Of a DNA stretch of 64,000 nucleotides, positions 39,101 to 61,988 are shown piece by piece. Source of the stretch: Alphaproteobacteria bacterium (GTDB lineage Bacteria; Pseudomonadota; Alphaproteobacteria; SHNJ01); contig SHNJ01000012.1 of assembly GCA_004295055.1 (NCBI GenBank), positions 1-64,000 of the forward strand. Direction: 5' to 3'. Positions within the stretch are counted from its first letter, which is position 1, and the number at the start of each line of letters is the position of its first letter. A program made the position numbers and the translations under genes. Under the pieces are notes generated by a model, which worked only from the letters and a program-made list of their open reading frames with translations, was not told where the DNA came from and searched no databases.

Positions 39101-39649
39101 GATGAGTTGATCGCCGCAACACTGAAATTGCGTCAGGGAATCAATGAATTGAACAAAGAAGGCCGCGAACGCCTTACCGAAGCCTTTGTGAAGGTAAACG
39201 AAAACTTTTCCCGCCTGTTCACCCGCCTGTTTGGCGGCGGCAAGGCGTATTTGGAATGGACCGAACACGAAGACCCATTGGAAGCAGGCCTTGAAATCTT
39301 TGCATCGCCACCCGGCAAAAAATTGCAAGCGTTATCGTTGTTATCGGGCGGTGAACGCGCGCTTACCGCAATCGCCCTTTTATTCGCGGTATTCGAATGC
39401 AACCCAGCACCAATTTGCGTGCTGGACGAGGTCGATGCGCCATTGGATGAAAGCAACGTCGACCGGTATTGCACCATGCTGGAAGAAATGGCCAAACGCA
39501 ATGACACGCGGTATGTGGTTATCACTCACCACCGCATGACCATGGCCCGCATGCACCGTTTGTTCGGTGTGACTATGGGCGAGCCAGGCGTGTCACAATT
39601 GGTATCGGTCGATCTGCACACCGCCGAAAAAATGCGCGCCACAGCGTAA
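36191..39649 (+). CDS. smc: Chromosome segregation protein SMC
   Basis: Condensin-like ATPase that compacts and segregates the chromosome. The 1152-residue protein starts at GTG with AAGGGG upstream. Walker A GPNGCGKS is at 31-38, the R-loop/Q-loop region and QGRVGHLVNAKPTERR follow, then a long coiled coil, a hinge around 500-640 and a second coil. The ABC signature LSGGERAL begins at 1051, and Walker B is CVLDEVDAPLDE. scpA and scpB are not in the window. The 179-base upstream gap contains two inverted repeats (36038-36046/36069-36077 and 36112-36117/36123-36128) without a T-tract. Confidence 0.98.
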   Translation: MQLTKLRLSGFKSFVEPTELVLEPGLTGIVGPNGCGKSNIVDALKWVMGETSAKQLRGGEMDDVIFNGTQARPARNFAEVVLHLDNQLRKAPANFNDADALEVSRRIDRGEGSTYKVNARDVRQRDVQTIFADASTGAHSTAIVSQGRVGHLVNAKPTERRALLEEAAGIVGLHARRHEAELRLNAAENNIKRSEDILRQLNEQLVSLKKQAKQAAAYKSLADRFRQTEALFFHHQWVDVNARVSSAQTRKGEIDGELTGLETELTAINAQQAELAGNIPALRQKEAERAAALQRLKLAEHELTGEESRLAAAQMALEQRISQIQNDLEREKQLAEDARKNIDTVSAEQKEISEIQNSQQEIVANLLTEFQSRESAQKSAEAELQNLSDTIGREETRWSALEERKNQLQSRLTKLADDLTKSTAQRDEWKTKLDADNSLQLCLQAVVFNEAEVSNAKTKLAEAEQNLQTAQSAHDDAQKQSQEFNANKAKLRAEADGLRAILSSESDIVDPIMDQVRVNSGFEAALSAALGDDLFAGLQDSADRFWRGLPPFASAPELPHGATPLNQMVEAPKELTRALSLVGVVENFESGQLLQNYLSIGQCLVSKNGDLWRFDGYTAKAQASQKTATHLRHKNRLEEVSKELENLNAEETRIAQLSFTAQQNLTEAKERQQTSRTALDTAYNELQAARGKQSDETQRIAVTQAQYESAQQNCDRLTAEQTETQGNFDTLIAEMGEKPDFDAMRADQSQKRLSVEELRNQAFQARATYEQSSNESKQRETRLQQLDNQLRDWQKRLTEVESRQAMLGERQETAIAEQQELAGKPAEFAAQREQLLIQITAAEESRNEAADILSQAETKLSEVDKSGRALQNSIGALREERVKHQTAIELGDTEQQKLRYDIQERLEASPEQLLDIAALKDPADMPDFTATQNKLERLRRERDNMGPVNLRADIEATEVEEKLTKQQSEHDELIAATLKLRQGINELNKEGRERLTEAFVKVNENFSRLFTRLFGGGKAYLEWTEHEDPLEAGLEIFASPPGKKLQALSLLSGGERALTAIALLFAVFECNPAPICVLDEVDAPLDESNVDRYCTMLEEMAKRNDTRYVVITHHRMTMARMHRLFGVTMGEPGVSQLVSVDLHTAEKMRATA

Positions 39650-39650
39650 G

Positions 39651-39728
39651 GTTTCAGGTGTCTGGTATCAGGTTTCGGGTAAGATAATAGCAATTTCAAC
39701 CTGGCACCTGACACCCGATACCTGGCAC
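39651..39728. repeat. Inverted array of eight 7-bp units after smc
   Basis: Four direct heptamers (GTTTCAG, GTGTCTG, GTATCAG, GTTTCGG; 39651-39678) are followed after a 22-base spacer by four inverted heptamers, read on the minus strand as GTGCCAG, GTATCGG, GTGTCAG, GTGCCAG (39728-39701). The common pattern is GTNYCNG. The two halves can pair along their length, with several G-T wobbles. It fills almost the whole gap between smc and the next gene. Confidence 0.85.
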
Positions 39729-39735
39729 CCGTTTC

Positions 39736-40881
39736 ATGCGCAAATTCTTTACCAACCGCGACGTCAATCACATATTTCTGCATAAACTGATATATTATTG
39801 CGGCGAACGCATAGGCTGGATTTTCGGTCCGATTTTTATGCTGCAGTTGGGATATGGCATCGACGTCACGCTGGCCATCTGGTCCGGCATTTTTGCGATG
39901 CGCCTGCCAATCCGGTACCTGTATTTGCGTTCATTTAAATTTTTCGGCCTTACGCGCGCCGTATGTTTTGGACTCGTTTGTTATGCCGGCGCTATGTGTT
40001 TCCTGCCGCACATCAAAGAACGTCCCGACTTGATTCCCTGGTTCTTATTGGTATTCAGCGTTGCAATGACGTTTTACTACACCGCCTTTCATACAATCTT
40101 TGGATTGGTGGGCGATACTGGGAACCGCGGCAAACACATGTCCATGATCAACACGCTATCCACCATACTCAGCGCGTTAATCCCGCTTCTTAGCGCGACA
40201 ATCGTCGGTTTGGCCGGATTTGAAACCCTGTTCAGTATTTCGGCGATATTGATGGTTATTGCCGCCATTCCCTTATGGAAGCTAAAAACTCCCACCCCCA
40301 AATTATTGACCAAACACAGCGAAAAGCAAAAAGCCGCCGTGCGCTGGATCATGAAATATCATTTTTTCTACGCTATCAAGGAATATGCCAGCATATTTCT
40401 TTGGCGGTTTGTGGTGTTCACCATGGTGGGCAGTTTAATGATGTTTGGCACAGTTTTGACCGCCGGGCTGATTTTCTTTGCCATTCTGCAATTATTCGTC
40501 GGCCATTATATCGATAAGGGCCGAGGGTATTTAATGTTAAAAATTGGCACGGCTATCAGTCTTGTGCAAGTATTGATCCGTTCAGCCATACCGGGAGTAC
40601 CTGCGGCCATGGCGGTAACTGAAGGATTATCCATCGGCAATCAATTAATGACCCAGGCGGATGTCAATTTTTACAATCAAGGCAAAACCGCCGAAAGTTA
40701 TTTTCACTACATCTATTGGGCCGAAGTTGCCTGGGACGCCAGCGTTACCGCGATATTGCTAACCATTGCCGGCATGGTTCATATTGGTTTTTCTTTGCAA
40801 ATGATCATGTTAATACTAAGCCCGATCGGGCTTTTGGGCCTGTATTGGATCAATCTTCAGGCTAAAAACGCAACGTCATAA
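39736..40881 (+). CDS. MFS-like multi-span membrane protein
   Basis: A 381-residue protein with about ten to eleven hydrophobic segments and short loops, consistent with a major-facilitator-type carrier. A long basic cytoplasmic loop near residues 185-205 (KLKTPTPKLLTKHSEKQKAA) splits it into two halves, as in MFS proteins. No substrate motif is recognised. It starts eight bases after the heptamer array, and smc read-through would have to cross that hairpin. It is followed by the atp operon promoter. Confidence 0.75.
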   Translation: MRKFFTNRDVNHIFLHKLIYYCGERIGWIFGPIFMLQLGYGIDVTLAIWSGIFAMRLPIRYLYLRSFKFFGLTRAVCFGLVCYAGAMCFLPHIKERPDLIPWFLLVFSVAMTFYYTAFHTIFGLVGDTGNRGKHMSMINTLSTILSALIPLLSATIVGLAGFETLFSISAILMVIAAIPLWKLKTPTPKLLTKHSEKQKAAVRWIMKYHFFYAIKEYASIFLWRFVVFTMVGSLMMFGTVLTAGLIFFAILQLFVGHYIDKGRGYLMLKIGTAISLVQVLIRSAIPGVPAAMAVTEGLSIGNQLMTQADVNFYNQGKTAESYFHYIYWAEVAWDASVTAILLTIAGMVHIGFSLQMIMLILSPIGLLGLYWINLQAKNATS

Positions 40882-61951: not shown

Positions 61952-61954
61952 TTG

Positions 61955-61987
61955 CCCTAAAACCCTAAACCCAAACCCCTAAACCCC
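61955..61987 (-). repeat. GGGTTTA-type tract, potential G-quadruplex
   Basis: On the minus (coding) strand the 37-base gap between coxC and the DUF983 gene is almost wholly degenerate GGGTTTA heptamers, with five G-runs (61987-61984, 61979-61976, 61972-61970, 61965-61963, 61957-61955) and loops of 3 to 5 bases. This satisfies the usual G-quadruplex pattern. The last run ends three bases before the ATG. Confidence 0.85.
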
Positions 61988-61988
61988 G

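Follow-up and report, generated by a model that had tools for sequence, protein, structure and literature searches.

A two-armed heptamer array downstream of smc in an alphaproteobacterium, a probable gene-less copy of an IVP-family element

The array between smc and the MFS gene

We analysed an inverted array of seven-nucleotide repeats that lies downstream of smc in a 64-kb stretch of DNA (positions 1 to 64,000 of contig SHNJ01000012.1, hereafter the window) from the 1.95-Mb genome of an alphaproteobacterium. The array fills the gap between smc and a gene for a major facilitator superfamily (MFS) protein. The TAA stop codon of smc (39647..39649, plus strand) abuts the first GGT box; on the far side, 7 bases separate the array from the next ATG (39736, same strand). 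The left arm (39651..39678, plus strand) consists of four GTNYCNG heptamers, GTTTCAG, GTGTCTG, GTATCAG and GTTTCGG. The right arm (39701..39728, minus strand) consists of four inverted heptamers that read, outermost first and as the inverse complement, GTGCCAG, GTATCGG, GTGTCAG and GTGCCAG. The spacer of 22 bases between them (39679..39700) constitutes the loop of the hairpin and holds no trace of a gene of the IVP family (PF05635, 23S_rRNA_IVP). Five GGT boxes with exact 7-nt spacing run through each arm; they start at 39650, 39657, 39664, 39671 and 39678 on the plus strand in the left arm, and lie at 39699, 39706, 39713, 39720 and 39727 in the right arm, where they appear as ACC on the plus strand. 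An earlier note on this DNA had described the four plus four heptamers, their exact 7-bp phasing and the spacer, all of which are read directly from the sequence. Its statement that the pairing covers the whole array with only G-T wobbles does not hold, since almost all units are interrupted by a mismatch, in most cases at the third position of the heptamer.

The two arms are the only runs of four GTNYCNG units in the window, and 200 first-order Markov simulations of the window produced no run of three units. The predicted RNA fold of the array is strong on the plus strand (-39.8 kcal/mol, z -4.84) as well as on the minus strand (-38.1 kcal/mol, z -4.69). An Rfam search of the window gave no matches. 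The G+C stem followed by a T tract that defines an intrinsic terminator is not found at the array, and no terminator-like site was scored there, the sole scored site being at 39814; this supports the view in the earlier note that this is not an ordinary terminator. Like the intervening sequences (IVSs) of 23S rRNA, the array has a long stem made by terminal inverted repeats, but it is located between smc and the MFS gene and not inside an rRNA gene, and its loop lacks the IVP/S23p open reading frame, which is present in a sister copy on contig C36. The array edges (TAAGG/TAGG and CCTTA/CCTA) are palindromic, and no separate target duplication was recognised by eye.

The GTNYCNG family across the genome

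Pairs of GTNYCNG units match the genome 108 times and triples 61 times, compared with 14 and 0 matches, respectively, for the reversed control pattern. From these matches we took 19 two-armed loci, several arms being extended by hand to four in-phase units wherever a single unit departed from the exact pattern. Single-arm or chance matches were excluded, namely L039, L042 (a tRNA gene by eye, as is L290), L046:3001 (a decayed array), L055, L056:3001, L065, L066 and L053:1535. The earlier note had reserved the plain structural terminator for the case that no other copies exist; this outcome fails because of the 19 two-armed copies, and its description as a mobile or structured repeat is supported.

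The letters of the unit vary among copies at positions 3, 4 and 6, while the GGT boxes recur constantly every 7 nt. When one imperfect box within a run is permitted, 26 of the 38 arms have five boxes, 10 have four, two have three, and none has more than five. The arrays are placed at stop codons: in 16 of the 19 two-armed arrays, an open frame of 80 codons or more has its stop codon at the array edge, compared with a fraction of 0.106 under random placement within the same loci, which was not confined to intergenic places. Gene neighbours could be resolved for 14 of the 19 arrays; 10 of these lie between co-directional genes, three between divergent genes and one between convergent genes.

Almost all units of these arrays contain a mismatch, which divides the stem into a succession of short helices. 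Facing units are identical at position 3 with a frequency of 0.211, whereas 0.379 is expected when arms are re-paired between loci (p 0.00075, compared with 0.19 and 0.38 in the registers shifted by one unit); the deficit is confined to the hairpin register. Compensatory pairing was rejected as the cause of the variable positions, because facing units are less alike than by chance at position 3. Slippage expansion, suggested in the earlier note, does not explain the arrays of this genome because no arm exceeds five GGT boxes and position-3 mismatch is above chance; the units are, moreover, heterogeneous, and an orthologous rpsJ/rplC array in a genome from another genus of the same family (G001) has the same number of units, and its spacer is conserved as well. 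The mismatches that recur in the short hairpins are probably maintained by selection against perfect stems, which would be cut by RNase III or deleted through palindrome instability.

IVP genes and two heptamer families

In the C36 copy, 373 bases between GTNYCNG arms (C36:2554-2574 and 2948-2975) code for a protein of 122 amino acids that matches PF05635 with E 3.7e-37 (C36:2599-2913). Proteins of this family are annotated as "four helix bundle protein" or "S23 ribosomal protein"; the nearest solved structure by sequence is PDB 2gsc (E 3e-20), with 2rld as a weaker match. The genome has only two PF05635 genes, and the second (C24:26593-26907) lies between arms of its own unit, GGGTNTT (GGGTTTT/GGGTATT). 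Among 30 loci fetched, and with two mismatches allowed, this unit has 16 distinct sites, at least 10 of them two-armed, and by a relaxed run count five boxes are present in 19 of 26 arms. The reversed-pattern control was discarded for GGGTNTT as invalid, because it amounts to the same unit in another phase. The window itself contains a one-armed copy of the second family (61952..61988, minus strand; GGGTTTA/GGGTNTT type, CCCTAAA on the plus strand), which exactly fills the space that separates a coxIII-like gene from the following gene on the minus strand and shares its unit type with the arms of the second IVP gene. This genome therefore carries two IVP genes together with two heptamer families, both of which have many dispersed copies that lack the gene. 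The complete element is an IVP-family four-helix-bundle gene flanked on either side by arrays of a 7-nt unit that are inverted relative to each other, and the smc array consists of such inverted arrays with the unit of the arms of the C36 gene.

Period-7 arrays around IVP genes across phyla

Of 61 IVP loci collected from many phyla, three were dropped for short flanks, and we compared the flanks of the other 58. The loci are the best-scoring matches, and several from the genus g67 share one site and hence are non-independent. Period 7 was found on both flanks in 33 of the 58 loci and on at least one flank in 49, while other periods occupied both flanks in only 0-3 loci. Far flanks, 600-800 bases off, showed period 7 on both sides in 0/52 and on either side in 1/52. 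The upstream and downstream flanks are inversely complementary (Smith-Waterman score at least 14) in 51 of the 58 loci, as opposed to 7/58 mismatched pairs and 11/52 far flanks; L212, L213 and L205 are examples with no complementarity between the flanks. Among the 28 of these loci that came from an undirected phylum draw, period 7 was present on both sides in 17 and on at least one side in 25. The heptamer units differ between IVP genes (GGCAGTA, AGTAGTG, GTGAGGC, AGCTATC, GGAACAC and others). The upstream gene is co-directional with the IVP gene in 44 of the 53 cases that could be resolved among the 61 loci.

Eight of 15 listed IVP genes from cyanobacterial plasmids were opened, and seven of them have period 7 at 16/21 or more on both sides; in the remaining gene only the upstream side shows it. 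In two cyanobacterial plasmids (L277 and L280) IVP cassettes were seen between cas6 and cas4. Other IVP genes have periodic flanking arrays of 8 nt (L195) or 9 nt (L208), and IVP cassettes with different heptamers in related genomes (L224, L227, L230, L238 and L239) occupy apparently the same place before a NuoD-like start.

PF05635 is present in 28 of 29 genomes (32 loci, hand-picked from 116 loci for mixed-unit or two-armed GTNYCNG arrays), with up to 27 copies, and in 62 of 398 genomes drawn from the phylum of the window; this baseline covers one phylum, while the selected genomes come from many.

IVP sites in related genomes

One site in g67, flanked by an acyl-CoA-dehydrogenase-like and an mmsB-like gene (both named by our own reading), was matched in 61 genomes; 30 loci were fetched and 29 were readable, L260 being the unreadable one. 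An intact IVP cassette is present in 14 loci, nine are empty with a gap of 26-29 bases, and six have other contents. In L249 only the 3' end of the IVP gene and a short right arm remain. In L251 the IVP gene is mostly lost (38 amino acids) and both arms are made of 8-mers (TAGGGCAG) instead of the 7-mers of the 14 intact loci, which is a concerted change of two inverted arrays from 7-mers to 8-mers. The number of units per arm ranges from 1 to 11, so that a slippage-like change of unit number is real at this site.

Differences between the g67 IVP genes amount to 0.084, 0.050 and 0.299 at the three codon positions, and the gene is therefore under purifying selection at this site. Distances between the IVP sequences are correlated with those between the flanking genes (Mantel r 0.64, p 0.0002); the cassette is therefore old and mostly vertically inherited, with losses or recombination. 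Filled and empty sites are interspersed on the tree of the flanking genes, but we rejected this as evidence of new insertion, as vertical descent with loss or recombination explains it equally well.

In G001 an inverted heptamer array also directly follows the smc stop codon (L276). Its unit is GTGGNNA, its downstream gene is different, and its fold is weaker (z -1.76). The G001 homologue of the MFS gene follows a murG-like gene (by translation) with no array, and is uninformative. In another G001 array (L060:4690-4771) the left arm mixes units of the GTTAGCT and GGTGTCA types.

Discussion

We consider it probable that the smc array is a copy, without the IVP gene, of an IVP element, which we see as a hairpin cassette that resides at gene 3' ends and acts like the rRNA IVSs. 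Such an element is located where a gene ends, and in many cases it provides or borders the stop codon; its orientation is largely that of the gene upstream. Because of this location and direction, it would be transcribed within the host mRNA and fold into an extended hairpin whose loop carries the IVP message. The IVP homologue of X. campestris forms a homopentameric torus, according to PMC4990558. We suggest that IVP binds its cognate boxes. Since the homologue is a five-membered ring and five boxes are commonest in both heptamer families, one box per ring subunit is proposed, five boxes per arm perhaps suiting the pentamer. Binding of IVP to the boxes could drive, or have driven, the spread of the element in cis and in trans, presumably by transposition. 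The short copies would then be non-autonomous selfish passengers, possibly tolerated because they are located between stop and start codons.

Several observations weigh against this interpretation. At the window copy neither a transposition event nor a target duplication nor an empty site was seen. A search of the 18 short spacers for IVP remnants found none (best E about 6). Across the phylum draw, IVP occurs in 8 of 28 genomes with a GTNYCNG triple and in 54 of 370 without one (p 0.059), a weak enrichment, many of the triple matches in this draw looking like chance or uniform repeats; and of the 116 loci where four heptamers match exactly, just 4 have an IVP gene within 400 bp. The mostly vertical descent of IVP at the g67 site leaves a high rate of movement unsupported, and since other genomes have from 1 to 11 units, the five-box rule is not general.

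The strongest competing explanation, to which we attach a low but appreciable probability, is a 3'-end hairpin useful to the host, which was recruited from such repeats, is retained by selection and would protect or process the mRNA between the genes of operons. The placement at stop codons and the strong fold agree with such a role, as do the vertical conservation of the rpsJ/rplC array between genera and the recurrence of an array after smc in the related genus despite another unit and another downstream gene. However, no shared function of the neighbouring genes was noticed, divergent and convergent sites occur, and identity of facing units at position 3 is avoided and not preserved.

It is improbable that the arrays are repetitive extragenic palindromic (REP) sequences of the REPIN type, moved by a Y1 transposase of the REP-associated tyrosine transposase (RAYT) kind, or miniature inverted-repeat transposable elements (MITEs) of some other transposase, with IVP as incidental cargo. 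The arrays resemble REPINs and the REP-RAYT system, as well as MITEs, in being numerous small inverted structures dispersed between genes and presumed to be non-autonomous. Unlike REPINs, their arms are unit-periodic and the associated gene encodes a four-helix bundle; we know of no nuclease domain in this protein. The gene between the arms is IVP here and in unrelated phyla alike. A Y1 transposase was rejected as the mover, as a search with PF01797, the only transposase family searched, gave no match in this genome but detected Y1_Tnp in 5 of the 14 genomes used as controls. A role as an ordinary rho-independent terminator for smc, to which the strong hairpin after a stop codon would correspond, is very unlikely given the position of the only scored site beyond the array, the close start of the next gene on the same strand, and the co-directional neighbours of most resolved copies.

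The IVP element shares with the 23S rRNA IVS of Coxiella, as presented in PMC4990558, a protein of the same family encoded in the loop of a long stem of terminal inverted repeats and co-transcribed with a host gene. That paper describes two to three tandem heptamers (GACAGAT) ahead of the S23p open reading frame in Coxiella burnetii, in strain-variable number, quotes a proposal that IVSs were mobile, and calls the family one without known function and the origin and role of IVSs unclear. In contrast to the Coxiella IVS, the elements described here reside between protein genes, their arms are wholly made of inverted heptamer arrays and, in this genome, mismatched, and many array copies have no IVP gene. 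In PMC10053308, PF05635 is likened to Avd of diversity-generating retroelements (4DWL vs 2GSC). Thus the tandem heptamers ahead of S23p with their strain variation, and the likeness of PF05635 to Avd, are known already from these two papers (PMC4990558, PMC10053308).

IVP cassettes outside rRNA with inverted heptamer arrays, and gene-less copies of them, provisionally appear to be undescribed in the literature searched, mostly without subscription papers and bioRxiv; likewise, no occurrence of 12 strings of array letters was found in published papers. The STRR sequences of cyanobacteria have been described as direct tandem heptanucleotide repeats. They resemble the present arrays in being intergenic tandem heptamers, and the IVP genes of cyanobacterial plasmids are bracketed by such heptamers; our literature search found no tie of STRR to IVP or to inverted pairing.

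More tentatively, and with the balance tipped against it, IVP genes could define a class of mobile elements that is widespread but has no transposase, in which a pentameric ring would read a ladder of 7-nt boxes in its own hairpin (RNA or single-stranded DNA), with a private heptamer for each lineage, and would move itself and array-only copies to gene 3' ends; the rRNA IVSs, the STRR heptamers and Avd of the diversity-generating retroelements might then be branches of one system. Arrays that stand beside the IVP gene, vary from one IVP gene to another and recur at other places in the same genome offer a directly testable candidate ligand for a family that has no assigned function, and a candidate explanation for intergenic heptamer arrays that have so far had none. 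The switch from 7-mers to 8-mers in L251 provides a natural experiment on the concerted change of two inverted arrays. Together these arrays and genes suggest that a class of tiny and possibly selfish genetic elements has been overlooked.
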